This document shows, in pieces, positions 1 to 44,269 of a stretch of DNA of 55,264 nucleotides; position 1 is the stretch's first letter, and each line of letters opens with the position of its first letter. This stretch comes from a virus. The translations under genes were made by a program, and so were the position numbers. A model generated the notes under the pieces. The model saw only the letters and a program-made list of their open reading frames with translations. It ran no database searches and was not told the DNA's origin. The stretch lies in IMG/VR virus record IMGVR_UViG_3300042546_000342, positions 1 through 55,264 of that record; one strand, given 5' to 3'.

Positions 1-968
1 CAAAAGGATTGATGATTAACTTGGAAGCGTGGGATAATGTTATGGTGGACGGAAAAATAAAATCCACAGAAGAGTTGTTCCAAATGGCTACCGAAACGGG
101 TATCGTATTATATCGTGGTACTTCTACGATGGACGAGAGCGGGCGGATAACAGGTAAACCTATCGAGGAATTAGACGGTGGACTAGGGCGACAATTTACC
201 GAAATCATAGCAGACTTGGACTACAATATGCGAATGATATACGAGGTAAGCGGTATCAACGAGGTGATGGCGGCAAGCAACCCTGACCCGAATATGTTAA
301 GTGGTGTGGCGAAACAAGCGGTATCTTCTTCGGAGAACTCGTTGGGGAGCATCTTAGACGCAGTTACAAATATCCACGAGAGATTAGCTACGGATATATC
401 ATTGAAGCTACAAATAATGCTTAAGGATAAAACTATTGGCGTATATGACAAAGCATTAGGCAAGATAATAGAGGTCGGTGAAGAAGTAAGCCCTATGACA
501 TTTGGTATTGCATTAGAGCCATTGCCTACCGAACAGCAAAGAAGAAAAATGGAGGAAATGATAATGAGTTCCGTTATCAATCCTAACAACCCTACTACGG
601 GCGGTCTGTTCGTGGACGATGCTATTCCATTGATTACGGAGATATATAGTGGTGTAAATCTTAAAGTAATTATGCGCAAGTATTCTTACTTGTTAAAGAA
701 GCGCAGAGATGAGTTCATGGCGAATGAGCAAATGAAGATTAAGACACAGAGTGACGGCATTGTACAGCAAACCCAAGCGTCAACAGAAGGGCAAATGCAA
801 ATGTTACAATATGAGCGTGAAACAAAACTAGCTGTAATACAAGCGGAAGCCGAAGCGCAAATAAGGGTGTTTAAAGAAACACAACCGTACAGAAACGAAC
901 AAACAATAATAAGGTCGGAAACCAAAAAAGGAGAGAAAGCATTTGAGGCGAGTTTGCCACCGAAATAA
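1..968 (+). CDS. Portal protein, C-terminal part (5' end cut by window)
   Basis: This is the C-terminal ~320 residues of a probable portal protein, the dodecameric ring through which DNA is packaged and ejected. The frame is open to the window edge, so the TTG/ATG codons at 9-14 are probably internal. What is seen: a segment ending in LLYRG-type residues, a GGLG stretch, a long helix rich in N and S (SSSENSLGSI), and a Q- and E-rich helical tail with repeated QAEAEAQ-like residues. This pattern resembles the C-terminal half of crAss-like portals. Scaffold and capsid genes follow on the same strand, after an opposite-strand pair, as expected for a head module. Family assignment is by pattern recognition only. 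Confidence 0.7.
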   Translation, partial: KGLMINLEAWDNVMVDGKIKSTEELFQMATETGIVLYRGTSTMDESGRITGKPIEELDGGLGRQFTEIIADLDYNMRMIYEVSGINEVMAASNPDPNMLSGVAKQAVSSSENSLGSILDAVTNIHERLATDISLKLQIMLKDKTIGVYDKALGKIIEVGEEVSPMTFGIALEPLPTEQQRRKMEEMIMSSVINPNNPTTGGLFVDDAIPLITEIYSGVNLKVIMRKYSYLLKKRRDEFMANEQMKIKTQSDGIVQQTQASTEGQMQMLQYERETKLAVIQAEAEAQIRVFKETQPYRNEQTIIRSETKKGEKAFEASLPPK

Positions 969-1229
969 TTATTCTCCGTTATCTACAAACCTAACACCTA
1001 CAAGCCAAAGAAAACCCGCTAAGTCAGTAGCACAGTTGGCTACTGTATCTTCATCCATATCGGGAAAGTAGTGATGCAAGTATTCATGTATATAAACGTC
1101 AAGTTTACGAACACCTTTCAAACGCTTATCAATATGTATTTCCTCACCATCTTGAAAGTAAAGACCATCGGCTTTATGTTTGCCTAATTTGCGTACAATA
1201 ACTTTTGGAAGTCTTTTAGGTGTTGGCAT
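969..1229 (-). CDS. Small zincin-like metallopeptidase-domain protein
   Basis: An 86-residue protein with a clear HExxH zinc-binding motif (HEYLH, about residues 48-52) followed by an acidic stretch (DMDED). A third ligand may be one of the later acidic residues. Tiny zincin domains of this sort occur in Bacteroidetes phages; their substrates are unknown. It is transcribed leftward, overlaps the end of the exonuclease gene by 14 bp and ends one base after the portal stop, so the two leftward genes probably form one transcript. Maturation or host-directed proteolysis are both possible; nothing in the sequence decides. Confidence 0.7.
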   Translation of the reverse strand: MPTPKRLPKVIVRKLGKHKADGLYFQDGEEIHIDKRLKGVRKLDVYIHEYLHHYFPDMDEDTVANCATDLAGFLWLVGVRFVDNGE

Positions 1230-2979
1230 CTTTGGATTTTAATAGGGTAAACTCTAACATCTTTAGATAGGTACGATTTGATATTTTGTAGAACTTACGG
1301 CACGAATTACATTTCATGTGGCGTTTAATATACCCCATAGCCGTTGCGTCCGTGTGGGATAGTTGAACATTTTTACTTGCACATTCGGGGCAATGCCATT
1401 TTTCACCACCTTTAAGGACTGCCATATTTGTGTTGTGGTAAATATATGGAGATATAGCGAAGTAAACGTCCTCAAGAACAGCAACATCTTGAACGCAGTA
1501 GTCAATCATTTTCTTTAATGAGGCTTTATTTTTATGTTCGCAAATGTCAATCCACAACTTCATGCCCTCATGGTCAAGTTTGCGCCCTACATTCAAAACT
1601 TTTCCCAAGTAATCTAACTTGTTGCTAGGAAATCTAAAGTATTGTCTTGATTTTTTTAGTGTATCGAGGGTGCGGTAAATGGGAAACATTAAATTGCCCG
1701 TTAAAATAGCTCGTGTGCGCAATTCTTTGATGTCGAATTTGTCGCAGTTGTGCATTGGGTATCCTGCCCCAAAAAATGTTTTGCTACTTGTAGAGAATAC
1801 AGCAACTTCTTTCATCCCAACTTCTTCTATTTTTACAACGGTAGCTACTTCTAAATTCTTACCTTTTAGAAAGCCTAAATTATTCCAATCTATTTTATGG
1901 ATAAATCTGTCAATCTCATATTTCCCAATAACCTCCATTGTTTTGAACTTACCTCCATTGATACCCGTGTATAGTGTATCGCCTTTACCTAATCCACCCG
2001 TTTTTGGTTTTCTTTTTTTGCATAATTCTAAACCTAGTTCATCGCAAATTCTTAATGCTTTATCCCAAGTCACACCTGCTCTTTGGCAAAAATCAATAGA
2101 TAAACCTGCTTCACCTCCCATCTTTAAAGTTCCTTCTCCGCTTATAAATCCACTAATCCAACCGCCATTATATGTGTTATCTCTTTCCCACGGGTTAAAA
2201 TACTTCATAACTCTATTGCCTACTACTAATTCTTGAGAACTTCTCCATCTTTGGTTTCTATCCTTTATTCCTAAACTAAGCCAAAAGTGGTCTTTTGTTG
2301 TAGTAACTTCGTCACCATTATCAAAAGTAACTTTTATACATTCAGCCATTTTTTTAGAGAAGTCAGTAACCTTTGCTTCTTTTAACTTTCTGTATCCATT
2401 ACCATTCCACTTACCGTCCTTATTTCTGCAAGTTGTATTTGGCGGTGTTTTTTCTTCAAAGCCACCAAGAGTATCTCCTTCTTTTAAATCACCTGCTTTA
2501 ACCCATCTAAAATCCGATGTTAGCACGGGCGTATTGACCTCCACGCAATTGTGGGCTACAATCTCGTCAGCGTCCTTAATTACTTGAATAAAATCTTTGA
2601 TTAACTTGGTGTCGTCTTGATTTTCGTCCCACTTTAGAACGTGGACTTTATCTTCGTACTGCCACTTGTAGGCAATGCAGATAATTTTCTTCTCTCTTAA
2701 TATGTTGTCAGGGTTGATATTAACTTTCCAAAATTGAAAGGTAGGCACTAAATAGTAAGACGTTTCAATATCAAAAAATAATCGCTTGATTTCAGATGTC
2801 TGCTTCTTAATATTTGACTTTGCGAGGAACGTCCCTACTCTACGCCTAAAGGTTTCTGCTTTTGTTTGTAGGTTAAATTTTTTCATAACCTCATCCGCAA
2901 TGTGGGTTATGTTCTGTGTGCTTTCGTATCTTACTCTAATGTACTCTTGAATTTCTTTTGTGAGGACTAGGCGAGCCAT
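1216..2979 (-). CDS. 3'-5' exonuclease (DnaQ/PolB-exo fold) interrupted by an intein
   Basis: 587 residues in the precursor, about 320 after splicing. Extein: an N-terminal helix-turn-helix-like region (about residues 20-55), then an RNase H-fold exonuclease with Exo I FDIE (D70, E72), Exo II HN-[intein]-CDKFD (N144 then D416) and Exo III YCVQD (Y494, D498), and a C-terminal zinc ribbon with CPEC (530-533) and CNSC (557-560). No polymerase domain follows. Intein: C145 to N411, ending in HN before Cys412, so self-splicing would restore the sequence AHNCDKFD. Without splicing the catalytic N and D are 267 residues apart and the enzyme should be inactive. A TACCTTTG promoter box lies just upstream. 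Likely role: DNA repair, replication or nucleotide salvage. Confidence 0.85.
   Translation of the reverse strand: MARLVLTKEIQEYIRVRYESTQNITHIADEVMKKFNLQTKAETFRRRVGTFLAKSNIKKQTSEIKRLFFDIETSYYLVPTFQFWKVNINPDNILREKKIICIAYKWQYEDKVHVLKWDENQDDTKLIKDFIQVIKDADEIVAHNCVEVNTPVLTSDFRWVKAGDLKEGDTLGGFEEKTPPNTTCRNKDGKWNGNGYRKLKEAKVTDFSKKMAECIKVTFDNGDEVTTTKDHFWLSLGIKDRNQRWRSSQELVVGNRVMKYFNPWERDNTYNGGWISGFISGEGTLKMGGEAGLSIDFCQRAGVTWDKALRICDELGLELCKKRKPKTGGLGKGDTLYTGINGGKFKTMEVIGKYEIDRFIHKIDWNNLGFLKGKNLEVATVVKIEEVGMKEVAVFSTSSKTFFGAGYPMHNCDKFDIKELRTRAILTGNLMFPIYRTLDTLKKSRQYFRFPSNKLDYLGKVLNVGRKLDHEGMKLWIDICEHKNKASLKKMIDYCVQDVAVLEDVYFAISPYIYHNTNMAVLKGGEKWHCPECASKNVQLSHTDATAMGYIKRHMKCNSCRKFYKISNRTYLKMLEFTLLKSKDANT
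1747..2547 (-). other. Intein coding segment within the exonuclease gene
   Basis: 267 residues (C145-N411 of the precursor). Block A begins with Cys (CVEVNTPVLT, then a GD ending). Block B has the TxxH motif (T228 to H231, TKDH). The end has the EEVG...FS...F.AG...HN signature with the terminal His-Asn, followed by Cys +1. A DOD/LAGLIDADG-like motif is visible (WISGFISGEGTL, 274-285), but I see no clear second copy, so the homing endonuclease may be reduced or degenerate. Borders were set by restoring the Exo II motif and checked codon by codon on the minus strand. Confidence 0.88.
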
Positions 2980-3001
2980 AGCTTTATATTTTAATGTATA
3001 G

Positions 3002-3009
3002 CAAAGGTA
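3002..3009 (-). promoter_or_regulatory. -7 box TACCTTTG for the exonuclease/metallopeptidase pair
   Basis: A match to the Bacteroidetes TAnnTTTG element, oriented leftward 22 bp before the exonuclease ATG. It lies back to back with the rightward scaffold promoter, giving a compact divergent promoter region. Confidence 0.6.
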
Positions 3010-3033
3010 GTTATTAAATTTGTTAAAAAGTGT

Positions 3034-3041
3034 TATATTTG
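3034..3041 (+). promoter_or_regulatory. -7 box TATATTTG for the scaffold/capsid unit
   Basis: The box sits in a 21-bp core (3022-3042) that is identical to the core at 7027-7047 before the fibre genes. A leader containing ACTTAAATTATA follows. Because transcription must start after this box, the scaffold start is placed at 3059 rather than at the upstream TTG. Confidence 0.65.
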
Positions 3042-3058
3042 CATCAAACTTAAATTAT

Positions 3059-4132
3059 ATGTTAGATACAATGCTAGAAGATATGGGTGCTGTACCCGAT
3101 GTTCAACAACAAGTTGACCCCGTTACACCGCCCGTTGAAACAACACAAGTTCAGCAAGTAGTTGAACCTATTGACACCGTTCTTTCAATTAATAATGACG
3201 AACCACAAACGGTACAACCAACCGCTAATAATACGTCAAACCAAGCGTCCGAAATGGATAGAGGTAAGATACTAAATGAGTTATTTGGTATTGACAACCC
3301 CGATACTATTAAGGAAAGACTTTTAGGTTATGACGAATTAAAAGCAAGTTCGGAAGCACCGAAGTACCAAACTAAGTTCGCAGAGTACATTGACCAATTA
3401 GTATCGCAATATGGCGACCCAAAGTCACAAACGGAAGCATTTAAGAACGCATTTGATGTTCTTACCACAGACGTAGCGACAATGGATAGCAAACAAGCTA
3501 TTGCGTTTCAAATGAAGCAAGAGTACCCATCGTTAGGTAGCGAAGAGATTGACTTGCTTATTTCTAGTAAATACAAGTTAAGCGAATACGCTTCTGATGA
3601 TGAGCAGCGTCTAGGTCAAATTCAAATGAAGTTGGACAGCGAGAAAGCAAAGACCGCAATTCGAGAATTGCAAATTAACACTTTGAAGGACGTTCCCAAC
3701 AAAACAAATGAGTTAAAAGCCATCGACACCGAGAAGCGCAACTTGGAATGGAAAACTAAAACAAATGAAGTAGTCGCCAAGATTAATTCTTTTGAGTTTG
3801 AAGTTGACAAAGGCAAGAAAGTTAAATTTGACATCCCACAAGCAGACAAGGCATTGTTGTCCGAAATTGCTTCGCAGGTTGCTCCAAGTTTTTCTCCTGA
3901 TGCTAATGGAATGGAACAAGTACAAAAGATTGTTGAAATGACTTACGTCTACAACAAGATGAGTAACTTGATTTCTAACTCATACAAAAAAGGATTGAGC
4001 GAGGCAAACGCTGAATGGGAAGCTAAAGTGAATAACCCTAGTGGTGGCAAGAACACCGCCCCCGTAGGAGATTTCGCTAAAGCCAAAACAGCAGACGAAC
4101 AATTTGTTGAATTTGTGGCAAATCTTAGATAG
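3059..4132 (+). CDS. Probable scaffold / prohead core protein
   Basis: 357 residues from the ATG at 3059, which lies downstream of the promoter; an in-frame TTG at 3020 precedes the -7 box and cannot be used. The protein is acidic, with a low-complexity Q/P/V/T-rich N-terminus, a helical middle part and a conserved-looking C-terminal tail (QFVEFVANLR). Highly charged helical proteins directly upstream of a capsid gene usually act as internal scaffolds for prohead assembly. Assignment rests on position and composition; no family motif was recognised. Confidence 0.6.
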   Translation: MLDTMLEDMGAVPDVQQQVDPVTPPVETTQVQQVVEPIDTVLSINNDEPQTVQPTANNTSNQASEMDRGKILNELFGIDNPDTIKERLLGYDELKASSEAPKYQTKFAEYIDQLVSQYGDPKSQTEAFKNAFDVLTTDVATMDSKQAIAFQMKQEYPSLGSEEIDLLISSKYKLSEYASDDEQRLGQIQMKLDSEKAKTAIRELQINTLKDVPNKTNELKAIDTEKRNLEWKTKTNEVVAKINSFEFEVDKGKKVKFDIPQADKALLSEIASQVAPSFSPDANGMEQVQKIVEMTYVYNKMSNLISNSYKKGLSEANAEWEAKVNNPSGGKNTAPVGDFAKAKTADEQFVEFVANLR

Positions 4133-4169
4133 TAAACAATAATTCATAACCCCCTAAAACCAAATAAAA

Positions 4170-5516
4170 ATGGCAGGAGCAGTAACAGCACCAATTAACA
4201 ATACATTGGTGTCCACATTCAACTTACACAAGCCCGAATACTCGAACTTTTTGTTCCGCAAGTACGGCAAACAAGGTTTCACAGCCTTTCAATTTTTGCA
4301 ATCATTAGGTAACGTAACACCTGTTGCTCAAGAAAACTTCTACCACTTCGAGGAGAATTGGATAGCTAGTTCATTTACAACCACAGGCGGTTCAGGTGCG
4401 GCAGGTGCATCAGTAAACCTTACTGTTTCTGCTGCTTACATCGACACATTGGGTAACTACTACCCTCGTTTGAACGACATCTTGATGTTCGCTAACGGTG
4501 TTAAAGCGCAAGTAATTGCAGACAACGGTTCAGGTGTATTAACAGTTCGTCCTTTAAAGCAATCACAAGCAATTTCAGTAGCAGCCGATGAGCAAATCAT
4601 CATCCCAAGCAACTCGTTTGCAGAAGGTACAGGTCAACCTGATGGTCGTGTGTCAGACGTATTCCGTTATGACTTTAATATGCAAATCATCAAAGAAACC
4701 ATTTCTACCACAGGTACTGAATTGACCAACCAACTTTGGGTAAACTCAATTGATGGCACGACTATCAACGCATGGTTCGACAAAGCCAAGTCTATTGACT
4801 TAGATTACCGTATGGCACTTGCTATTGACGGTATGCTTTTGTACGGTACTAAAGCGGACAACACGGGCATCTTGGGAACTACATCAGAAGGTTTGGTAGA
4901 CGCTGTAACTACACAAGGTGGTAACGGTACTTACACTCAAGGTTTGTTCTCTGTTGCATTGTTCGACCAAATGAACCGCTACTTAGACAAGCAACAAGCA
5001 CCTAACGAGTACACAGGTCTATTAGGATACCAAGCGTTCCAAGATGTTGAAAATGCTTTGAGCAATGTGTTCACACAAAACCCAATCATCTTCGCAGGCG
5101 GAAACGGTAAAACATTAGGTCAAATGATGTACGGTGACATGGCTTCTAAGATTGATAGCAGCGTTGACATTGGTTTCCGTTCAATCACTAAGACTGACAG
5201 AACTTTCCACTTGTTGAAATTGGCGCAACTTAGCAACCCTCAATTGTACGGTGCAACAGGCTTTACCGAAGCATCTCGTATGATTTTCGTACCTCTTGAC
5301 AAACCTACACAACCTAAAGGTGGACAAGTACCACGCTTAGGAGTTCGTTACAAAGAGCTTGGTGGCTACTCTCGTAAGATGGAAGCATGGTACACAGGTT
5401 CAGCAGGTAACTTCGGTTTCAAAACTAACGACATCGATAGTGTTCAATTGCATAACAGAACCCACATGGGTGGCGAGCAGTTTGGACTTAACGCTTTCTA
5501 CCAATTTACTACATAG
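4170..5516 (+). CDS. Major capsid protein
   Basis: 448 residues, starting after an A-rich leader (AAATAAAA). It begins MAGAVTAPINNTLVSTFNL and has the HK97-like layout expected of crAss-like capsid proteins: an N-terminal arm, a segment around FRKYGKQGFTAFQFL, then glycine- and beta-rich domains with GGNGTYTQGLF and a C-terminal part rich in aromatics. Codon choice looks more uniform than in its neighbours, as in highly expressed genes. A strong UUCG-loop terminator follows directly, and a scaffold candidate precedes it. Fold assignment is inferred from context and resemblance. Confidence 0.75.
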   Translation: MAGAVTAPINNTLVSTFNLHKPEYSNFLFRKYGKQGFTAFQFLQSLGNVTPVAQENFYHFEENWIASSFTTTGGSGAAGASVNLTVSAAYIDTLGNYYPRLNDILMFANGVKAQVIADNGSGVLTVRPLKQSQAISVAADEQIIIPSNSFAEGTGQPDGRVSDVFRYDFNMQIIKETISTTGTELTNQLWVNSIDGTTINAWFDKAKSIDLDYRMALAIDGMLLYGTKADNTGILGTTSEGLVDAVTTQGGNGTYTQGLFSVALFDQMNRYLDKQQAPNEYTGLLGYQAFQDVENALSNVFTQNPIIFAGGNGKTLGQMMYGDMASKIDSSVDIGFRSITKTDRTFHLLKLAQLSNPQLYGATGFTEASRMIFVPLDKPTQPKGGQVPRLGVRYKELGGYSRKMEAWYTGSAGNFGFKTNDIDSVQLHNRTHMGGEQFGLNAFYQFTT

Positions 5517-5542
5517 TAAGTTGTAAGTTTTAAAAAAAATAG

Positions 5543-5572
5543 ATGGCTACTTCGGTAGCCATTTGTTTTTAT
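5543..5572 (+). terminator. Rho-independent terminator after the capsid gene
   Basis: A perfect 8-bp stem (ATGGCTAC / GTAGCCAT, 5543-5562) closed by a TTCG tetraloop and followed by TTGTTTTTAT. It lies 26 bp past the capsid stop. Confidence 0.9.
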
Positions 5573-5584
5573 ATTAAATGTTAT

Positions 5585-5592
5585 TATGTTTG
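5585..5592 (+). promoter_or_regulatory. -7 box TATGTTTG for a candidate small RNA
   Basis: A TAnnTTTG match just after the capsid terminator and about 190 bp before the next gene, which has its own promoter at 5752. It therefore appears to drive only the intervening non-coding stretch. Confidence 0.5.
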
Positions 5593-5596
5593 CGCC

Positions 5597-5735
5597 AACA
5601 GTACCTCGATTGCTTCCCGTAAGAACAGCACACTAGCAGAGGTCATTTTCATGCGTAAACGAATAGCCCAAGTGCATAAGTTATGGCAGACCAACGAGGC
5701 AATTAATGGGGACGCTCATTTACCCTCGTTTTTTT
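5597..5735 (+). ncRNA. Candidate structured small RNA between capsid and next gene
   Basis: About 140 nt with its own promoter box (5585-5592) and its own terminator: a 7-bp stem AACGAGG (5693-5699) / CCTCGTT (5724-5730) with inner AATG/CATT pairing and a run of seven T. Near the 5' end, ACCTC (5603-5607) pairs with GAGGT (5639-5643) around an inner TGCT (5611-5614) / AGCA (5627-5630) stem. No convincing reading frame fits between promoter and terminator. No known RNA family was recognised. It is boxed between two virion genes and could be regulatory or packaging-related; this is inference. Confidence 0.5.
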
Positions 5736-5751
5736 ATTTCATAAAATTTGT

Positions 5752-5759
5752 TAAATTTG
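5752..5759 (+). promoter_or_regulatory. -7 box TAAATTTG before the 317-aa gene
   Basis: Preceded by TTTG and followed by a leader (ATCAACTTAAATTATA) nearly identical to that of the scaffold gene, suggesting a shared late-gene leader. Confidence 0.6.
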
Positions 5760-5781
5760 CATCAACTTAAATTATAAAAAT

Positions 5782-6735
5782 ATGTTACTCTTAAACAGAA
5801 CACCCGTAGCCCCTGAATGGCTAAAAGACCAATGTAAACTACTTGGTTTAGAACTTAAAAATTTACAAAAACCCACAACCTTCCGATTAGTCGAAAGCTA
5901 TTGGCGCAAGGTGTATCAGATGGAAGTCAATTCTAATCAGATGCGTGAGCGAATGTTCGTTGCGCCCGAATTCCACATTGAGGCGACCTACTTGTACAGC
6001 AATAGACAAACGGGATTAACGGATAACCTAACGTATGTTAGGAATTTCATTCCCGACAATTCGGGTCATAACCAAAACGCTATTGAGCCGATTATCTTCG
6101 AGAGAGGGGTATTGGCGGTGGAAGAGGGGCAAGCGGATTTATTCTTCTTTTTATTGAACTCACCAATTAACAAGAACAACCCTAAATACGCTAACGGATT
6201 ATCTAAGCCTAGCAAACCGTTCCAATTTACGCAGATACTACCCGATGTGGAAGCAAGTGATTTCTTGGATTACGAATTAGCTATTTCTAAAGCGGTGACA
6301 ATGATTGGCGATGCTACTTCTAAGAACTACGTTAATGACGAAGCGGCTATCGCTTTGGCTAAGGCTTATGGTTACGGAAGTATGCTAAACAAAGGCAGAA
6401 AGGACATCAACAAGTTCTTGATTGAGAAAGCTAAGAAAAACCCGACTAAGTTGATTAGCGACTTGACAAGTGCGGCAACGGAAATCAGAGCGATATTGGC
6501 AGACGCTATTGCTCACGGCATTATTGTGCAAGACCTCCCTTACATTAAGTGGACTGACTTGGACAAAGGTAAGAGAAAAGCCAACAACGGTATCATCACT
6601 CAAGTGCCAAGCGGACTAGACCCATTAGACCACTTTGTAAATTGGATGCGAGAGAGCGACAATAGCGGTGTATTCAATCAATTAAAGAAAGACTTGGAAA
6701 ACAAGAAACTTGCTTTAGCTGATACGGAAGCATAG
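5782..6735 (+). CDS. Uncharacterised head-region protein
   Basis: 317 residues, ATG after a leader shared with the scaffold gene. No recognised domain. The N-terminal half carries mixed hydrophobic and aromatic segments (YWRKVYQMEV, FFFLLNSP), the C-terminal half is helical and charged. It sits alone between two terminators, immediately after the capsid gene. Position suggests an auxiliary head, ring or connector component, but a non-structural role cannot be excluded. Confidence 0.7.
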   Translation: MLLLNRTPVAPEWLKDQCKLLGLELKNLQKPTTFRLVESYWRKVYQMEVNSNQMRERMFVAPEFHIEATYLYSNRQTGLTDNLTYVRNFIPDNSGHNQNAIEPIIFERGVLAVEEGQADLFFFLLNSPINKNNPKYANGLSKPSKPFQFTQILPDVEASDFLDYELAISKAVTMIGDATSKNYVNDEAAIALAKAYGYGSMLNKGRKDINKFLIEKAKKNPTKLISDLTSAATEIRAILADAIAHGIIVQDLPYIKWTDLDKGKRKANNGIITQVPSGLDPLDHFVNWMRESDNSGVFNQLKKDLENKKLALADTEA

Positions 6736-6754
6736 TCTTACTGAATAAACGGAG

Positions 6755-6785
6755 AAGCCTCACTATAAACGGTGGGGCTTTTTTA
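6755..6785 (+). terminator. Rho-independent terminator after the 317-aa gene
   Basis: Stem AAGCCTCAC (6755-6763) / GTGGGGCTT (6772-6780) with one G-U pair, then TTTTTTAT. The same stem sequence reappears in the leftward terminator at 51761-51784. Confidence 0.9.
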
Positions 6786-6992
6786 TTTAAGAATAGCCGT
6801 ATTTTTCTTGCTATCAATTTGTATTTGGTGTCCATTTTTAGCTAATCTATGTACATACACCTCTGTTGACTTTACTGCAAATACTCCGTCCGCACCGTAT
6901 ATGTATTCGCTAATATCTTTGAACGATTTTTCTTTTTTATCAGAAAGGCATTGTAATATTAGCATTTCTATGTATCGTAACTTATTTGCCAT
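6783..6992 (-). CDS. Small winged-helix (OmpR/PhoB-type) DNA-binding protein
   Basis: 69 residues. The sequence reads as a single winged helix: helices around RYIEMLILQCL and SFKDISEYIYG, a recognition-helix region (KSTEVYVHRLAKNG) and a beta-wing (HQIQIDSKKNTAILK), close to the C-terminal domain of OmpR/PhoB regulators without a receiver domain. It is the only leftward gene in this part of the head module and has its own promoter (TAGTTTTG) exactly 4 nt before the ATG, which implies a leaderless message and supports it as a real gene. Probably a small phage regulator. Confidence 0.75.
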   Translation of the reverse strand: MANKLRYIEMLILQCLSDKKEKSFKDISEYIYGADGVFAVKSTEVYVHRLAKNGHQIQIDSKKNTAILK

Positions 6993-6996
6993 CTCG

Positions 6997-7004
6997 CAAA
7001 ACTA
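6997..7004 (-). promoter_or_regulatory. -7 box TAGTTTTG, leaderless promoter of the winged-helix gene
   Basis: Minus-strand TAnnTTTG followed by CGAG and then ATG. The four-nucleotide gap matches four rightward genes in this window and implies that transcription starts at or next to the start codon. Confidence 0.6.
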
Positions 7005-7038
7005 CCAATTAATCAAAAATGATTTCGTTAAAAAGTGT

Positions 7039-7046
7039 TATATTTG
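7039..7046 (+). promoter_or_regulatory. -7 box TATATTTG of the fibre-gene unit
   Basis: Lies in a 21-bp core (7027-7047) identical to the scaffold promoter core at 3022-3042. It excludes the TTG at 7035 as start and places the gene start at ATG 7065. Confidence 0.65.
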
Positions 7047-7064
7047 CTTTCAAAAATAAGTCAA

Positions 7065-8903
7065 ATGCCAATCACATCCGCCCAATTATCAAGCGCATTA
7101 CGAGTTAAGAAAGAATTTAATTTGGTCAATGGAGATTTAGACTTGACTGATTTAACAAACTTCGCAGGGCTTGGCGTGATTGCGCCAAACACATGGGCTA
7201 CTTTGGTTAAAATTGTTGACCCAACGGGCGCAGTTGTTTATCAAAATGCAGGATTTGACACCGATAATTACAATTCACCTGACTTTGATAATAACACAAA
7301 TACGTTAGCAGAGAGTATCCCGACAGACGTTTTGGGTAACTACATTACGGGAACATATACTATTGACTTAAAATGCGAAGTAATACAAGGTGATGACACT
7401 ATTTATGGTAGCGCAACGACTACTTCTTTTGTATGTGGTTGCACTACGGTGGTAAGTATTGATGTAGATGTGGACTACGCTACGGCAGTCATTACGACAA
7501 CGGACACCACTAATTATGGTGCTTATGTTTCGTTGACAAGAAGCCACACCATTTACCCGCCACCGATTAGCGGACTACCTAGTCAGTCAACTTCTGCGAC
7601 AACCAATGTGTACACAAATATCGTAACAACTACTTGGTCGGTACAGATTGAAAGCACGATTGTAACCTTAAAAGCAAACGACACATATACTACTTGTGAG
7701 GTAAGCGGAAGCAAAGAGTTCTTGGTAGAAGCCGATACATTGTGTAAGACATTGTGTGTATTGAAAACCTATCGTGCCGACTTGTTCAAAAAGTTTGGCA
7801 AGGTGAATACGGCAGAGATGGAACGTGCTTGGAGTTTGGCTATGGACGAATATGTCTTAGCAATACAAGCAACTAGATGTGGTCGCCCACAAAGCGAGGT
7901 GCAAGGGTATATTGACAAGGCTTATGCTATTTTGGGGCTAGACCCTACTTGTGATTGCGGATGTAGCGCAAATGACAACCCAACTCCCGTAGTACCTACT
8001 TCAATTATAAACGGAGAAGATGGCACGGATGGTGTAACACCCGAATTTCAGAACACGGGAACTTGGATACAAGTAAGTTATAATGAGGGAAGCACTTGGG
8101 TGAACTTGTTTAGCTTGGCGAGTGTGACGGGCGCAACAGGCGCAGCAGGGGCTAACGGATTAGATGGGGCAAGTGGAGCAATCGTACTTCATAATGACAT
8201 AACAAATTCAACAACAACTACTAATGCGCTAGAATTACTAGCCAATAAAACATATCAATTACCCGCAGGAACGATAGCCAATAATGGCGACATACTTAAA
8301 ATTCGTGCAAGATTTACCACATCGCCCGAAGTTGGGGTTAATATTAAAGAGTGCTATGTTTACTTAGGCGGTTCTGCTGTATCTATTTTTTCAGCGTTTA
8401 CAAGAAACCAAACTCTTGCAGAAATTGAAATGTATATCACGAGGACAACCCCGACAGGCGGTATGATAGATGGATATTCAACTCTATCTGTTACAAATGC
8501 ACCGCCTTTACTTTGGGTTTCTCCTTATAATCAAGTTCAGAAGTGGAATTTCCCTCTTGAAACAATAGCACCCACTTGGGCGGGCGCACTAGATATTCAA
8601 ATATATGCAGATGATAATGGATACAATCCTATCACTTGTGAATTATTCCAAGTTGAAGTGGTTAAATACGGAACTCAAGTGAGTGCTTCTGCCGCCATAT
8701 TCTACGGTGTACCATTTACGACAACTAATGCGGTTCAAACTTACCCTAACGTAATCGGTAGCTTTGGTAAGACAATTAGAAGGGTTTACTTAGATGGCGA
8801 GTTGCTAGATACTGCTGATTGGACATACGACAACACTACGGATATATTAACCTTTGTATTAGCAATAAGCGGAGCATCAGAAGTACAAATTGATTACCAA
8901 TAA
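7065..8903 (+). CDS. Fibre-like virion protein with short collagen-like segment
   Basis: 612 residues from ATG 7065. N-terminal beta-rich domains with cysteines (CGCTTVV; a CDCGC cluster near residue 305), a helical piece (KTYRADLFKKFGKVNTAEMERAW) and, near residue 360, a short Gly-X-Y run (GATGAAGANGLDGASG) typical of trimeric phage fibres. The C-terminal ~250 residues are beta-rich and more AT-rich in their codons. Likely a head or tail fibre in which the collagen-like segment joins an attachment domain to a distal domain. Host-binding role is inference. Confidence 0.7.
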   Translation: MPITSAQLSSALRVKKEFNLVNGDLDLTDLTNFAGLGVIAPNTWATLVKIVDPTGAVVYQNAGFDTDNYNSPDFDNNTNTLAESIPTDVLGNYITGTYTIDLKCEVIQGDDTIYGSATTTSFVCGCTTVVSIDVDVDYATAVITTTDTTNYGAYVSLTRSHTIYPPPISGLPSQSTSATTNVYTNIVTTTWSVQIESTIVTLKANDTYTTCEVSGSKEFLVEADTLCKTLCVLKTYRADLFKKFGKVNTAEMERAWSLAMDEYVLAIQATRCGRPQSEVQGYIDKAYAILGLDPTCDCGCSANDNPTPVVPTSIINGEDGTDGVTPEFQNTGTWIQVSYNEGSTWVNLFSLASVTGATGAAGANGLDGASGAIVLHNDITNSTTTTNALELLANKTYQLPAGTIANNGDILKIRARFTTSPEVGVNIKECYVYLGGSAVSIFSAFTRNQTLAEIEMYITRTTPTGGMIDGYSTLSVTNAPPLLWVSPYNQVQKWNFPLETIAPTWAGALDIQIYADDNGYNPITCELFQVEVVKYGTQVSASAAIFYGVPFTTTNAVQTYPNVIGSFGKTIRRVYLDGELLDTADWTYDNTTDILTFVLAISGASEVQIDYQ

Positions 8904-8915
8904 AAAACTAAAAAA

Positions 8916-9458
8916 ATGGCAATAGAGCAAAATCAGAATTATCTCCATACGGGGGAAGTTGAGTTTCAAGGAGGGGTTAAAATAGTAAATGGCGCAGAAG
9001 GTGTCGGCAAGGTATTGACATCTGACGCAAGTGGTAATGCTTCTTGGACATCAAGTAGTGCGGGTGTTATACTAAGTGCTACTAGAGTAATTACAAGTGC
9101 AGAGTTATTGCAAATACACACAACGCCAATAGAATTAGTTGCCGCACAAGGAGTTGGTACTGTTTTATGCCCTATTCAAGTTGCTATTTCAATAAACTAT
9201 AATACAACACCATACGCAACAGACACAGCATTAAGATTATTTTGGAACAATAACACAACACTATTGATTTCTTTTGGTGCTACGTTAGATAAAACAGCAG
9301 ATTTTTATTTACAAAGAAGTGTACAGACGACTGCATCGTGGACGGGCGCAAATTTAGCCGAAAATGTAAATCTTGCTATTTCTACGGGAATATCAAATCC
9401 AACAGCAGGTGATAGCGATGTTAAAATTACCATACTATACACAGTAATAACAATATAA
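8916..9458 (+). CDS. Small fibre/decoration-type protein
   Basis: 180 residues. The N-terminus has the fibre-like phrase GKVLTSDASGNASWTSS, seen in many Bacteroidetes surface and phage fibre proteins; the rest is beta-rich (SINYNTTPYATDTALRLFW). It lies 12 bp after the preceding fibre gene and 10 bp before the next, in one operon. Probably a partner fibre or head-decoration subunit. No enzymatic motif is visible. Confidence 0.65.
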   Translation: MAIEQNQNYLHTGEVEFQGGVKIVNGAEGVGKVLTSDASGNASWTSSSAGVILSATRVITSAELLQIHTTPIELVAAQGVGTVLCPIQVAISINYNTTPYATDTALRLFWNNNTTLLISFGATLDKTADFYLQRSVQTTASWTGANLAENVNLAISTGISNPTAGDSDVKITILYTVITI

Positions 9459-9468
9459 AAAAAAGAAA

Positions 9469-10521
9469 ATGAGCAAAGTATTACCGATATATCCAATAAC
9501 TTCACTAGGTGGAACATTCACCTTTGAGTTATCTACCTCCGCAGATGGGTTCTATGTGCAACCCGATGCTAGTCCTACGGTACTATCTGCTAACTTGGTA
9601 TTCAACTTTAGTGGAACGCCTAGCGATAGTCAGCAAGTGGATGTGTATTTCTCAAACATTGATTTAAACGGGAATACGTTTACTATAAATGGCGAAACTA
9701 TAAGCGAAGCAAATGCGTTAAACGGTGCTTTATATAGCTTCTTGTTTATAGACGGTGCTTGGGGGTTATCTGTAACTCAAAACATTTCTTTGCCTAATAT
9801 ATTAGATGGCGATATTCTAATTGACGGCTCAACTCCGATTACTAAACTCGAACCATTGACTTCGGGGCGCATTATAGTCGGTAGTGGCTCAAACGTACCA
9901 ACCGCAGTAGCAGTAACGGGTGACGTTACTATTAGCAACGCAGGGGTAACAGCAATTTCTTCGGGAGTAATTGTTAATGCAGACGTAAACGCAAGTGCCG
10001 CTATTGACAGAAGCAAACTAGCAAACGGAACAGCAAGTCACGTTTTAATTAATAGTGGTGCAGGTGCATTTTCAAGCGAGGCAACCCTTTCGCCCGTGCG
10101 TGGTGGGTTAGGACTAGACGCAAGTGCCGCAACGGGATTTGTAAAAGTGAGTAGCGGTGTAACTTCAATAAGTTCGATTACCGAAACATTGATTGTACCT
10201 GTTAGCTTTGAAACGGGAGAAGTAGGAACTATCTTTGTTGACTTCCCTTACGCTTGTACTATTTCATCGTATCAATTTGTTTGCACAAAAGCGTTAGCGG
10301 GAACAGATGCAGGCACAATTCAATTTGCTGATAATAGTGGAACAAACATGACGGGAGGATTAGCTTCTATCCCCGCTTCAACAGCATTTGGGACTAGAGT
10401 TGGTGCGACAATTACGTCAGGAGGTAGCGTGGCAATAAATGACGACATAAGAATTACCACCGCCAAGACAACGGCAGGGGGCAGAGGGTTTGTTTCAATA
10501 ACTTATACTAGAGTAGGATAA
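9469..10521 (+). CDS. Tail/head fibre-like protein
   Basis: 350 residues, beta-rich and low in charge, with phrases typical of phage fibres: TSGRIIVGSGSNVPTAVAV, GDVTISNAGVTAISSG, and NASAAIDRSKLANGTASH, followed by a VRGGLGLDAS-type linker. These recur in fibres whose shaft is built from short beta repeats. Its stop overlaps the next start (TAATG), indicating translational coupling to the connector-like protein. Likely a structural fibre; target unknown. Confidence 0.7.
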   Translation: MSKVLPIYPITSLGGTFTFELSTSADGFYVQPDASPTVLSANLVFNFSGTPSDSQQVDVYFSNIDLNGNTFTINGETISEANALNGALYSFLFIDGAWGLSVTQNISLPNILDGDILIDGSTPITKLEPLTSGRIIVGSGSNVPTAVAVTGDVTISNAGVTAISSGVIVNADVNASAAIDRSKLANGTASHVLINSGAGAFSSEATLSPVRGGLGLDASAATGFVKVSSGVTSISSITETLIVPVSFETGEVGTIFVDFPYACTISSYQFVCTKALAGTDAGTIQFADNSGTNMTGGLASIPASTAFGTRVGATITSGGSVAINDDIRITTAKTTAGGRGFVSITYTRVG

Positions 10522-11225
10522 TGAATGTAAATGATGTTTATTTGTTAATTTCCTTCCTAAGCGACAAAAGCCAATCTAGGCAGATTAGTTCGGATGAGTT
10601 CAATATCGCTATGTCTAGTGCTAACTTAGAACTGTTTAAGACAAAAGTAGGCATACCCGAAGAATACCAAGTAGGACAAGCAAAGTCTAGGCAAGAGTGG
10701 CAAGTAACGACTAAAATATCGGATGATATGCGTAAGTTTGTTACCGAAGTGGAGATTAATAAAGTAGGTGGTGTGTTTCCTTACCCAACTGATTACGGTG
10801 CGTTCAGTTCATTAAGATATTCAAGAATATTGAACAACGGTTGCGATACGCCCGATGTGAGAACAAGAACAATTGAATTAGTAACAGACGGTGAGTTGTC
10901 CGATAGATTAGACAACACGGTGGTGTACCCCGACTTCGAGTACCCCGTAGGTGCGTGGTACTCGGCAGGGTGGAAAGTGTTTCCAAAAATAATCGAGAAG
11001 ATTGATTTGACTTATCTTCGCATACCCGTAACGCCCGTTAGAGGATACATACTAGACCCTGCAACGGACTTAACAACATACGACCCATTGACAAGTGTTC
11101 AAATAGAATACCCCGAAACGCTACACATTGACTTCACTTATCGTGTGCTAAAATATTTAGCAATTAACATTCGAGAGGAGCTACTATACGAGATGGCTAA
11201 TCAGCGTCAGATAGCAGGTCAATAG
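10521..11225 (+). CDS. Connector / ring-like virion protein
   Basis: 234 residues, mostly helical N- and C-termini flanking a central region with tyrosines and prolines (FPYPTDYGAFSSLRYSR; VQIEYPETLHIDFTYRVLKYLAINIREELL). Proteins of this size and pattern directly before the large tail protein are ring or adaptor proteins in podovirus-like Bacteroidetes phages. Coupled by TAATG to the upstream gene. Assignment is by context, no diagnostic motif. Confidence 0.55.
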   Translation: MNVNDVYLLISFLSDKSQSRQISSDEFNIAMSSANLELFKTKVGIPEEYQVGQAKSRQEWQVTTKISDDMRKFVTEVEINKVGGVFPYPTDYGAFSSLRYSRILNNGCDTPDVRTRTIELVTDGELSDRLDNTVVYPDFEYPVGAWYSAGWKVFPKIIEKIDLTYLRIPVTPVRGYILDPATDLTTYDPLTSVQIEYPETLHIDFTYRVLKYLAINIREELLYEMANQRQIAGQ

Positions 11226-11250
11226 ATAAAACAAACTACACCTAATTTGT

Positions 11251-11258
11251 TATCTTTG
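11251..11258 (+). promoter_or_regulatory. -7 box TATCTTTG, leaderless promoter of the 1620-aa tail gene
   Basis: TATCTTTG, then CAAT, then ATG at 11263. TTTG sits right upstream (TTTGTTATCTTTG). The 4-nt gap implies a leaderless transcript. Confidence 0.65.
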
Positions 11259-11262
11259 CAAT

Positions 11263-14200
11263 ATGCAAGAAAAATTAATCAACGATTTAGTTGGGGGCAT
11301 GGATTTAGACCAATCCGATGTGCGTGTGGCGAGTACCGATTGGAGAACCGCCTTGAACATTGTGAGTGGCGTGGCGTACACGGGTCAACAGAATGTGATT
11401 ACTTCTGTTAAGGGTAACACACTTGAGCCTTACACATTACCGACCAATAGCACAAAAGTAGTTGGAGCGTATGCGGACATTCAAGAAAATACTGTTATTT
11501 ATTTTTTGCACGATTTAACGGGTAGTGGCAAAGACCAAATACTAAGATACGACAAAGACGCATCAAATAAAATTAGTTTGATTGTGGAATACGATTTTGG
11601 TTGGAACGCAGACACCGAGATTAAAGGGGTTACATTGCAGAGCAATAGGTTGCTGTATTGGAACGACCCCAAACCTAGAAAGATAAACATTGAGAAAGCA
11701 CCGATAGCGAACAAGAAAAAAGAGTGGGAAATAGTAATAGCGAAATCCGTAACGGGCGATGACCTTGTGGATTTCAATGTGTACTCGATGAACGGCACGT
11801 TGCTCACCACTAAGCTATTTTTCTTAGACAATGAAGGTGTCGGGGCGAAATTAGAACAACTAGCTGACTTCATCAACGCAGAACTAAGTCAATACTTTGA
11901 AGCCGAATATTGCGACTGCAAGATTACTTTAACCGAGAAGCAAGTAAACCTAGTCTATCCGACTATTGATAACTTTCCTTACTACTTTATTGTACCGACT
12001 AATTGGTACGGCAACGTGCTGACGGATAGAATATTTGACAGAGCGAAATGGCAACCGCCATTAGAGCCATTGGTTGAATTTGCGAAAGACCCAAGTATAT
12101 TGTACAATCGAGTATCGGAAAAGGTGTTTCAATTCCGATTGCAATATTGGTATGACGACAACGAAGGAAGCGACCTCGCACTAGGGTCAATTAGTACCAT
12201 TCCTATTAACAATATGCTGTGCGGTTCGGGAGTGAACGATGCGTATAATTGTATTCAGTTGACCATACCCGATACCTCTTTAGTAACACCTAGTTCAATG
12301 TCCATTATCAAACAAGTACGGATATTGGTGCGTGAGGGCAACGAGGGGATATGGAGAATAGTTGAAAATCTCGACTACTGCCAATGGGTAGATTTAGTTG
12401 ACGGAAATATTACGGCTACCTACACATTCTACAACGACATAGCCACAACTGCTATTGATGATGCAACGGTTAATAAGCCTTACGATGACGTTCCGCTAGA
12501 GTGCGGTGATGGTTTGGTGATTAAAAACCGTGCGGTGCTATCAAATGTCACAAAGGGGTACGACACGCCCGACTGCTTGGAGGTAACGGTTGAACAAGAT
12601 TTTGAGGAAGTAGCTAATTTTGGGTATGACATAACTTTAAATATAAGTATATACTCTCCATATTTGGATTTGAACACACCATCAAATTGGTCTAAGTTTG
12701 GGGAAGCACCTAAATCACTACTTAAAAGAGGATTAGTTGCTATTGATACAACAAGAGAAAATCCCGAAATATACTATGGAGGGCAACAATTAAATGTAGG
12801 TCAGGGTTCATTTCACGTTAGGGCAGGTATGGAAGATGTGTATGACCAAAGATTAGGCGAAGGAGGTTTTGTTGCTTATTTGGCAGGAACGGAAAGATTT
12901 GCAATATCTCAACAACCTACTACAATAAATGGCGTTCCTCATAATCTTCCAACAGCGCAAAGCGGAGCGATAGTAACAACATTATCTACACAAACTCAAA
13001 TAGGTCAATTCTTATTGGCAGGAACGGGGGGGAATACTCCATTTGGATATAATGAAATATCAAGTTCGGTTACTTTTAAAAATGTTCCTAATGGTACATA
13101 TTTAATAAGACTTGCCTCAAATTGGTGTTCTTATGGCGATAAGTTAGACAAAGGGCAAATATATGACTTGTATAATGGTACTGCATATCAGAAAACATCT
13201 ATGCCTTTGCTTGGCGTAATACCGTTTGATACTACATCAAATTCATTTAAGCCTTTTCAGCCATACAAAGAATTGAAAGTAACGGTAAATAATGGCAACG
13301 TATATGCAGGCGAAATAGTAGTTTGTGATTTAGCTGACAGATACGATGGTTTATCAAAAAGTCATGGAGTAGGATATTTATATGACAACGAGGGGGAAAT
13401 AGGCATTGATGAAATTAAATTAGGAGTACCTGTTGAGCAATCCGTTGTTGAAGTATCGGTTGGCGCATGGTTCTCTTTCAATAGCCTTTATTATTTAAAA
13501 CAATCTGTTCCATTAACCCCCGAAGGCAAAATAAGCGATGATGGGAAATCCTATCTTTCCTTAACAGACCATAACGGGTTCTTTTGGTATTGCAGGATAG
13601 ATGGATATGGCGTAGATAGCAATAAAGGAGTTGTTTTAATAAGTGCAGGTGGAACAACATCGAGATTTAGATATTTGACATCTCCATTTTATAGTGGAAG
13701 TATAAATGATTTGTTGTTTGGAAATATAAGTGGAGTTTCAATTCCTTATAGTCCTTACGCAACACAATTCGCTTCCATAGGTGGATATAGTTCAATTTTT
13801 GCAAATAACGACCCTGATAAAGTTGAACAATGGATTGCCCCGACTGCCCTTGCAACATCAAGAGCTGAAAATGCAACATTTATAAAAGGAAGAATTGTTG
13901 AACAAACAACAGGAGAGGGAGTAGTTGGAATTAACGTATGTATGGAATGGGGTCAAACCGTAAAAACAGATGTTAATGGTCAATTTACATTGCGAACTTT
14001 TGGCACTACTTACAAAAATGGATTGTTAGCACCATACCAACAAAGATTTGGCGACTTAGTCTTTATGTCAAATTTTTGCGGAATAGAATATGTGAATGGA
14101 TATACTCTTTATATTGATGTTCAACCAATAGGCGCAAATGCAGGAACAATACCGCCACCATATTCAATAACTGCTATCTATGATATTGGCGATTATTTAG

Positions 14201-24536: not shown

Positions 24537-26477
24537 ATGCAGATAGTACAGCCAAGTGGAAGTATGTTACCTAACCAAGCAAGTGCGGGGGTAGGGGCGG
24601 TTATATTTGACAAGCCGAAGTATGATGCGCAAGAGATTGGGTTAAAGGTTCAAGCAGACCTAGAGGATTGGGGTAAGCAAAAAGCATTAGCCGACCAAGC
24701 TAAACTAAAAACAGCTAAAGACCTTGTTGCCGATTTGTCTTATGAGCCTAAAGACTTTTTGCCCGAAGGTGCGGCTCAAGTAAAAGCCAAAGCAGACGAA
24801 CTAAAGAAAAAGGCGGCAGAATATGAAATGGCTGTTTATAATGCGGGAGCAGATAGTGAAACAGCTAACCTAAAAAAGAAAGAAGCGGAGATAGCTAAAA
24901 GCGATTTGCAGATATTGGTAAATAACTTAGGGCAAGCATCAAAAATGCTTACAGAATACAAGCCCGATGCGACTACCGACTTAGATGCTCAAAATAAATT
25001 AACTGTTGAATTAAGACAAAGTGCGGGAGAAAATGCTTTAAGTGGTAGATTTTTTAAGGCAATGCAACAATATGGCAAACCTATAAAGCCAAAAGGTATG
25101 ATTGAAGTTACGGATGACTTTGTTAAAAACATACCACTTAAAAAGACAGAAGAAGTAGTAGGGAAGGATGGTAAGATTATAGAAGAAGGTACTTCATTTA
25201 AGTTAAAACCAATCAAATATGACGACAAAGGGGTGATAATTGATGATGGTGATTTCGACTTGGTAACGGGCGCACCCGCTAGTCTTGCATCTACACCCGA
25301 ATATCAAAATGCAATTAAACCTTTTGTTGCTAGGATGTTAGACGCTAGTAAAAGATTGGAAAAAGGCGAGCAGTTGGCAGCTAGTGAAATGACTGACGCT
25401 TCTTTGTATAAATACTATGTAGATGAAGCGGCAAAAGAGAGTAAAAGATTAGGCAGACCGATATCCCCCGAAACAATAATCGCTAGAGGTGAATTAGAAA
25501 GAAGAAATCAAGTAGAAAAAACAGCTTCCTATAAAGAAGAAACTGCCACCACAAAAGAGATGGCTAAAGTCGGTGCAGAACAAAGTGTAAAGAAGAAAGC
25601 TGCAACAGGATTGATTAATTGGTTTATAGAAGTGGATAGAGGAAGCCCCGAAATATACACCAATATGACGATTAGCGATGTTGCGCCTAAGTACGATAGA
25701 GAAGTTTACGCTACTAAAGTATTAAGTCCAATTTCGGTAGGGGAAAAGTTTGAAACAAAAGAAGGGGCGAATGGTGCTATATATAAGATTGCTACACCCG
25801 ACTATGTTAGGTACTTTATGCAAGACAAAGAAACGGGAACTAAGTTCTATGCTAGTCAAAGCAGTATAGACGACTTCAATGACGGCAAAATATCTTCTCC
25901 GTTCAAGCAATACAAGAACATTGCGGAAATAGCAGCACAAGCCACGTTTGTTAATGGTGCTGACCAATCTATTGACAATATGAAAAACTATTGGGCAGAA
26001 GTTGGTAAGGAAAAGAGTTACTCAAAAGAGGACGGAAATGGCATTATCTACAAAGAAGGTAGAGAGATACACCCTTTCACCAAAACAGAACAACAAAAAT
26101 ACGGTGCAAACCTACGGCAGACAATGATTAAAGCGGGTACAACTTTACCTAAATACGAGAAAGGTAAAGTACCTGCTGATTTTTCGGGGCAATATTTGGA
26201 AGTGGAATACAAAGAAGGGGAAAATAAAAAACTTGAGATAATAAAGTCAACCCCTAGAGTGGCGAAACCTACTCCGCAACCGACTGTTGCTGATACCACT
26301 ACACAAACAACAGCAACTCCACCGCAGACCGCCCCGAAAGAGGAAGAACCTAAGAAAGAAGGAAAAACGGTTTCATTGCAAACGATAAAAAGTAAAGTAG
26401 GTACTAAAGGATTTGAAGGATACACCGAGAAAGAATTGGTTGACTATTATACATCACAAGGATATAAAATACAATAA
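24537..26477 (+). CDS. Probable internal virion / cargo protein, 646 aa
   Basis: Strongly helical, charged protein: a coiled-coil N-terminal third (KAKADELKKKAAEYEMA), a middle alpha/beta region and a proline/threonine-rich linker near the C-terminus (TPQPTVADTTTQTTATPP) before a final helical domain ending DYYTSQGYKI. Its stop overlaps the start of the 2528-residue gene (TAATG). Likely packaged with the genome; function inferred from context only. Confidence 0.55.
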   Translation: MQIVQPSGSMLPNQASAGVGAVIFDKPKYDAQEIGLKVQADLEDWGKQKALADQAKLKTAKDLVADLSYEPKDFLPEGAAQVKAKADELKKKAAEYEMAVYNAGADSETANLKKKEAEIAKSDLQILVNNLGQASKMLTEYKPDATTDLDAQNKLTVELRQSAGENALSGRFFKAMQQYGKPIKPKGMIEVTDDFVKNIPLKKTEEVVGKDGKIIEEGTSFKLKPIKYDDKGVIIDDGDFDLVTGAPASLASTPEYQNAIKPFVARMLDASKRLEKGEQLAASEMTDASLYKYYVDEAAKESKRLGRPISPETIIARGELERRNQVEKTASYKEETATTKEMAKVGAEQSVKKKAATGLINWFIEVDRGSPEIYTNMTISDVAPKYDREVYATKVLSPISVGEKFETKEGANGAIYKIATPDYVRYFMQDKETGTKFYASQSSIDDFNDGKISSPFKQYKNIAEIAAQATFVNGADQSIDNMKNYWAEVGKEKSYSKEDGNGIIYKEGREIHPFTKTEQQKYGANLRQTMIKAGTTLPKYEKGKVPADFSGQYLEVEYKEGENKKLEIIKSTPRVAKPTPQPTVADTTTQTTATPPQTAPKEEEPKKEGKTVSLQTIKSKVGTKGFEGYTEKELVDYYTSQGYKIQ

Positions 26478-43831: not shown

Positions 43832-44269
43832 CAGAGTGTTTAAATTTTTCAACACCGCTTGGTTTTTCTCGCCCGTGATGGCGTACAGTCTTACCAATTC
43901 AGAGTAAGCGTCCGATACAAAGTCAGAATAATTCTTTTGGCGCAACAAAGGTTCTGCGTAGTCAGAAACCATGCTCACCGCTTGAGCGACTTGTAGTCTT
44001 ACCTCCTCGTCACTATCGCATAAGTCTTGGAGTTCTTGGAGTGAACTTAGGATGGTAGAGTGGTGACGACCACCGATTTCTTTTCCTATGTCTTTTAGAG
44101 TGAACGGGTACATCCCGTCCAAGTAATGCTTGCGTAGCATATAGCAGAATAAGTGTCGTGCTTGAGCGATAGGTCTTAGCCTACTCTTTGATTTGATTTG
44201 TTCTTGAGTGATACCTGTTAAGGTGTACACAATCATAAATGCTTCGTTGATTTTTTCTGTTCTGTTCAT
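43766..44269 (-). CDS. DnaA domain IV-like DNA-binding protein
   Basis: 167 residues. Residues ~18-80 match the DnaA origin-binding domain: TGITQEQIKSKSR, ARHLFCYMLRK, LKDIGKEIGGRHHSTIL, the last being the DnaA signature with H-HST in place of D-HST. There is no AAA+ ATPase domain. The C-terminal half is helical and unrelated. Such stand-alone domains can bind DnaA boxes, to recruit or block host replication or regulate transcription. Coupled by ATGA overlap to the upstream glycosyltransferase; convergent with the GT2 gene. Confidence 0.85.
   Translation of the reverse strand: MNRTEKINEAFMIVYTLTGITQEQIKSKSRLRPIAQARHLFCYMLRKHYLDGMYPFTLKDIGKEIGGRHHSTILSSLQELQDLCDSDEEVRLQVAQAVSMVSDYAEPLLRQKNYSDFVSDAYSELVRLYAITGEKNQAVLKNLNTLLRKIGCENSEVINLVALAQAS

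Follow-up and report, generated by a model that had tools for sequence, protein, structure and literature searches.

A segment lying in frame within a phage exonuclease gene is, judged by its sequence, a class 1 intein that splits the Exo II motif of the enzyme (HN/xDKFD; the slash marks the insertion point), and a nearly identical allele was found that lacks exactly this segment and encodes Gly instead of Cys at the +1 position. The window, that is, the whole stretch of 55,264 bases analyzed here, corresponds to a single IMG/VR virus record and encodes tailed-phage proteins (portal, major virion protein, terminase, endolysin, and primase/helicase). The precursor ORF is placed on its minus strand, with portal and capsid genes on either side (Table 1). 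Very probably, the segment is a mobile intein of class 1 that has only recently entered the exonuclease gene in this phage population, and its one-motif LAGLIDADG endonuclease would act as a homodimer like I-CreI and I-MsoI.

Table 1. Features of the intein-bearing exonuclease gene and its surroundings, in window coordinates
Feature	Coordinates	Strand	Remarks
Precursor ORF	1216..2979	-	587 aa, stop-free; HTH-like N-terminus, DEDDy exonuclease with the intein inside, zinc-ribbon-like C-terminus
N-extein	2548..2979	-	144 aa, ends ...DEIVAHN; Exo I (FDIET, D70/E72) and the Exo II Asn
Intein	1747..2547	-	267 aa, precursor residues 145-411; class 1 by sequence, Cys1 ... His-Asn, single LAGLIDADG
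C-extein	1216..1746	-	CDKFD (remaining Exo II), Exo III (Y227-CVQ-D231, empty-protein numbering), CxxC...CxxC
+1 codon	1744..1746	-	TGC (Cys), C-extein nucleophile; GGC (Gly) in the 98%-identical empty allele
Block B TxxH	2287..2298	-	T84-K85-D86-H87; H87 invariant across intein relatives
Homing endonuclease core	1900..2172	-	Intein residues 126-216; one complete LAGLIDADG fold, AF2 secondary structure
LAGLIDADG motif	2125..2163	-	GWISGFISGEGTL; catalytic acid E138
Blocks F and G	1747..1809	-	EVAVFSTSSKTFFGAGYPMHN
Upstream divergent patch	2578..2680		13/103 = 12.6% versus empty allele
Downstream divergent patch	1498..1654		27/157 = 17.2% versus empty allele
Left part of pseudo-palindrome	2548..2561	-	TTGTAGCCCACAAT; candidate homing site

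Several other features of the window were recorded. A small minus-strand ORF (969-1229) overlaps the 3' end of the exonuclease gene and contains a metal-binding-like motif, HEYLHH; it matched a phage metallo-protease family weakly (phrog_87, E=0.0097). An anti-restriction protein (50064-50630, minus strand; phrog_2059, E=5e-22) is encoded inside a 10-kb run of small minus-strand ORFs at 45.7-55.2 kb. Large ORFs at 24537-26477, 34624-36267, and 44266-45666 (646, 547, and 466 aa) gave no match in PHROG/Pfam searches.

The 801-bp segment encodes 267 residues and leaves the precursor reading frame without a stop. Its splicing and nuclease residues are intact: it begins with Cys1 as the block A nucleophile, continues with T84xxH87 in block B and GWISGFISGEGT at residues 129-140, and ends with H266-N267 in block G, directly before Cys+1. 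The sequence-only reading had named the coordinates of the segment and these same landmarks (a start at Cys145 of the precursor, TxxH, a LAGLIDADG-like motif, the HN end, and Cys+1), all of which proved correct to the base. TIGR01445 (intein_Nterm) matched the segment over its cut-off (E=1.8e-7), and the Pfam Intein_splicing match was weak (18 bits; cut-off 35.8). The AF2 model of the intein (pLDDT 88.6, pTM 0.86) showed a HINT fold and one LAGLIDADG core at residues 126-216. The Foldseek matches listed for this model were intein, BIL, or hedgehog folds; the best was 7qsu (E=2.8e-9), and the Ssp DnaB mini-intein was also matched (6frg, E=6.1e-7, TMt 0.69; 1mi8, TMt 0.76). A class 3 intein was ruled out: this class has no Cys1 but a block F Cys and a WCT triplet, whereas Cys1 is present here and block F (VFSTSSKTFF) contains no Cys. 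No foreign base composition was found when the GC content of the intein (36.3%) was compared with that of the exteins (37.5%) and the window (38.8%).

At least 18 full-length relatives of the intein (246-285 aa), all with the same layout and a retained catalytic acid, were found in unrelated phage and plasmid genes. Inteins of unrelated genes aligned with it end to end (1-267): those of Gordonia phage portal proteins (the best match, E=1e-29), of terminase-like proteins of Mycobacterium cluster C1 (E=2e-18), of a DNA polymerase encoded on a Mycobacterium intracellulare plasmid, of a gene on a Roseicitreum plasmid, and of a phage contig from the human gut. Within IMG/VR, relatives occurred in PolA, a putative HD-type phosphohydrolase, a methylase, a helicase, and unidentified genes, and a scan of GTDB genome contigs gave one cellular relative, from Pseudohoeflea suaedae (L128). 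The collection query built from the first seven relatives was too divergent, and a two-sequence profile gave further relatives; a search seeded with the Gordonia intein alone returned no additional ones. The relatives were at most 36% identical to the intein, and nothing closer was found in the searches made. In a 13-member alignment, C1, H87, G133, G137, E138, Q155, H266, and N267 were invariant. Separately, the ORF at 475-5280 of IMG/VR contig 3300017764_003348 (L114) encodes a family A DNA polymerase of 1602 aa with apparently three inteins: a NUMOD4/HNH one ending in VTHN before Thr, a one-motif LAGLIDADG one, and a third ending in VSN before CYG.

When the segment was removed in silico, PF13482 (98-239, E=2.6e-8) and PF10108 (97-168, E=4.5e-8) both spanned the junction, while in the precursor PF13482 matched the C-terminal part only (E=2e-5); together with the TIGR01445 match, these HMM results agreed with the earlier proposal of an intein within an exonuclease. 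The host protein also matched phrog_403 (DNA polymerase exonuclease subunit, E=2e-57). It has the signature of a DEDDy exonuclease of the PolB type, namely Exo I DxE, Exo II N-x3-F/Y-D, and Exo III YxxxD, and D70, E72, N144, D149, Y227, and D231 (L003 numbering, from the empty allele described below) were invariant in 26 homologues. In Foldseek, the AF2 model of the host protein (pLDDT 80.7) matched PolB exonuclease domains, and HNGDKFD was aligned with YNGDNFD, the Exo II motif of KOD polymerase.

The intein enters directly after the Exo II Asn (N144), where the helix bearing D149 begins. The proposed split of Exo II was borne out, as the insertion separates the conserved Asn144 from the catalytic Asp D149, given the invariance in 26 homologues and the PolB fold. 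Because this strand-helix junction carries both the catalytic Asn and the catalytic Asp, the precursor is, by the structural model, almost certainly inactive as an exonuclease; splicing might then gate the activity, as the sequence-only reading suggested. No report of this insertion site was found in the open-access literature searched. On a 63.7-kb viral contig, 3300020045_004605, the exonuclease gene occurs twice (L087, L104), with the copies facing opposite ways; this may be an inverted duplication or an artefact of assembly.

The empty allele, in IMG/VR 3300045999_008091 (L003), lacks exactly the 801 intein bases and is 97.5% identical to the window over window positions 1-1752 and 97.9% over 2544-5592. 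Every other uninterrupted relative found is also without the segment, which together with the empty allele rules out a conserved domain and indicates that the insertion is recent; the alignment to uninterrupted homologues, through which a conserved exonuclease domain might have emerged, thus came out in favor of an intein. Contig 3300042402_001164 is also intein-bearing and probably represents the same virus resampled, since it is 100% identical to the window across 18.3 kb.

Divergence from L003 varied along the gene, being 0.3% in the first 299 bases, 12.6% at 299-401, 0.8% at 402-523, 17.2% at 524-680, and 0% beyond. The insertion point (432) sits in an almost identical 122-bp core with a divergent patch on each side. 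Over the first 5.5 kb, the background divergence was for the most part 0.4-1.6%, rising to 4% at 3001-3250. A model with a simple gradient of co-conversion was rejected for the surroundings of the insertion, as two divergent patches flank the identical core and more mosaic follows beyond 5.5 kb. Nor does a single continuous co-conversion tract account for the two patches, which counts against our best explanation. Patches nested around the site fit homing between strains in two consecutive rounds, with a short and then a longer co-conversion tract. Alternatively, the patches could stem from recombination of an unrelated kind or from an assembly of L003 that mixes strains; the chance that a random patch of this extent includes the site is ~8% by a rough estimate, so the pattern supports repeated homing weakly. 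Mosaicism was also seen between the near-identical phages of the window (5500-12038) and L129, with 14-27% divergent stretches beside 1-5% stretches.

The empty site reads HN/GDKFD. The empty allele is CACAAT/GGCGACAAATTC and the occupied allele CACAAT/intein/TGCGACAAATTC, and from -30 to +91 bases around the insertion the sole difference between them is G to T (GGC to TGC). Removal of the segment was said to restore the host motif (AHN+CDKFD); Exo II is indeed rejoined, but uninterrupted homologues read HNGDKFD. The residue after HN was Gly in 69 of the 72 distinct uninterrupted homologues and Phe, Ile, or Ser in the others, with Cys in 0/72. An exact search for HNCDKFD in 2.9 million IMG/VR viral contigs returned, besides the window, only the second intein-bearing contig; as HNC was never seen without the intein, nothing indicates that an intein was lost or that the site was pre-adapted. 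With its Cys codon at +1, the occupied allele itself provides the nucleophile for splicing, and Exo II of the mature enzyme would have Cys in place of Gly. This Cys should be tolerated, as the exonuclease family has Phe, Ile, and Ser at that position. The PolA of L114 points in the same direction, i.e. to a Cys carried in by the intein: its occupied site has Cys and four homologues, which are only 55-59% identical, have Val, Trp, Ile, and Leu. L118 and L122 likewise have Cys at the occupied site and Ser or Ala in homologues.

The endonuclease domain has the LAGLIDADG motif, the catalytic acid, and a complete core. All aligned relatives share the one-motif layout, E138 and Q155 are invariant in the 13 aligned members, and AF2 predicted a complete alpha-beta core. 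A profile of the domain matched I-AniI (6.4e-6), I-MsoI (1.5e-5), and other LAGLIDADG enzymes in the PDB; no Pfam LAGLIDADG match was obtained for the window intein alone, and LAGLIDADG_3 was matched in 8 of the 13 aligned members. At D6 of the LAGLIDADG motif, the window intein has Ser (GFISGEG), whereas most relatives have GxxDGEG. Single-motif enzymes such as I-CreI are homodimers acting on sites of palindromic symmetry (PMC3943268). In the empty allele, a 22-bp pseudo-palindrome (TTGTAGCC-CACAAT-GGCGACAA) is centred 3 bp upstream of the insertion point, and its arms match in 7 of 8 pairs, the best score in the gene. It fits the pseudo-palindromic target of about 22 bp expected for a homodimer but is only suggestive; we treat it as a lead because it was found post hoc (chance 0.06% per contig position, ~1% over the 21 centres examined) and because nothing comparable was seen in the other members, with no palindrome common to the insertion sites of the intein relatives.

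Could the segment be something other than a mobile intein? The HINT fold is common to inteins, BIL, and hedgehog domains, yet it is extremely improbable that the segment is a processing domain of the BIL or hedgehog type, or an additional conserved domain of the exonuclease, given the Cys+1, the HN end, the endonuclease domain, the intein homologues over the full length in unrelated genes, and the exact empty allele, on which the BIL and conserved-domain readings were rejected. The TIGR01445 match above cut-off, the full-length homologues, the HINT fold, and the absence of exactly 801 bp from the empty allele all uphold the intein identity first proposed. The sequence-only reading further took the single DOD motif as a sign of an endonuclease losing function; the intein would then splice with a dead endonuclease, as a decaying element fixed in the lineage. 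Ser at motif position 6 speaks for this, but E138 and Q155 are kept, a full single-domain fold is predicted, I-AniI and I-MsoI are matched, and every relative has the one-motif layout, which overturns the argument from motif number. Moreover, the presence/absence polymorphism within one species makes the arrival too recent for decay to be expected. We consider a dead endonuclease rather unlikely and an active, homodimeric one likelier.

The direction of change was weighed in the same way. If the intein allele were ancestral in the species, L003 would have become intein-free by recombining with a relative that lacked the intein, and the two L003 patches do diverge from the window on both sides of the site. 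However, no scar (HNC without intein) was seen among the 72 homologues or in the 2.9 million viral contigs, and all wider relatives are intein-free; at 42 differing sites the outgroup agreed with L003 in 25 and with the window in 15, which is not decisive. Such a loss is quite improbable. It is also unlikely that Gly-to-Cys came first as a rare natural variant, giving an already adapted HNC allele into which the intein then homed. One transversion (GGC to TGC) would be enough for this order of events, and it accords with the classic view that insertion sites must already carry Cys or Ser (PMC1635734), but uninterrupted HNC alleles are missing from the homologues (0/72) and the exact HNCDKFD motif was not found elsewhere in the viral contigs.

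Under the favored scenario of recent invasion, the endonuclease would cut within the Exo II codons of alleles that lack the intein, and the repair would copy the intein with the adjoining +1 codon, turning Gly+1 into Cys+1. The precursor would be exonuclease-dead, the insertion falling at the strand-helix junction with the catalytic Asn and Asp. Cys1 would form a thioester, the N-extein would pass to Cys+1, and Asn267 would cyclise with the assistance of His266, releasing a 320-residue exonuclease with HN-C-DKFD in Exo II.

Comparison of these two natural, near-identical alleles shows at once which one additional base substitution splicing requires. The pair makes it testable whether homing endonucleases accept targets with a splicing-unfit +1 residue, co-conversion then supplying the nucleophile. 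In addition, a phage intein with a lone LAGLIDADG motif should not be regarded as decaying for that reason. More tentatively, and with some doubt, phage one-motif inteins may be a widespread group of mobile elements that enter sites with a splicing-unfit +1 residue as a matter of routine and bring their own Cys codon. If so, the +1 residue would be a footprint separating never-invaded, occupied, and cured alleles, and an intein would permanently edit the active site of its host.

Compared with known systems, the host protein shares its profile match and Exo II alignment with PHROG 403 and the KOD/Tgo PolB exonuclease domain, but it is a stand-alone protein with an HTH-like N-terminus, a zinc-ribbon-like C-terminus, and Gly to Cys in the occupied allele. 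I-MsoI and I-CreI are encoded in group I introns, not inteins; they likewise have one LAGLIDADG domain with an acidic catalytic residue (I-MsoI profile E=1.5e-5), and the window intein may dimerise as they do. The Gordonia portal intein (Minos gp8) and the C1 terminase-like intein (ET08 gp239) also run from Cys1 to HN with one LAGLIDADG motif and are of similar size (269-275 aa; E=1e-29 and 2e-18, respectively), but they occupy other host genes and insertion sites, are 27-36% identical, depending on the alignment, and have Thr/Ser at +1 where the window intein has Cys. Minos and ET08 are Actinobacteria phages, whereas the nearest isolated relatives of the window phage by exonuclease are Flavobacterium phages. 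ET08 gp239 probably corresponds to Pham3880-g, the cluster C1 mycobacteriophage terminase-like intein that splices in an MBP-intein-GFP reporter (PMC5050341).

The closest precedent for the +1 change is the haloarchaeal MCM-d intein, whose empty alleles have Pro at +1, which must be co-converted to Ser (PMC10643990). There too, the empty +1 residue is unfit for splicing and the occupied one is a nucleophile, and co-conversion on invasion was the authors' conclusion. The MCM-d change is Pro to Ser in a cellular helicase, whereas that in the window is Gly to Cys in the active-site motif of a phage exonuclease, within a 98%-identical allele pair. Replacement of the +1 residue is thus an already known phenomenon of which the window provides a clean phage example. 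The element itself is of a known kind, a phage class 1 intein with a one-motif LAGLIDADG endonuclease, here with an unusually clean allele pair and a well-resolved +1 change.
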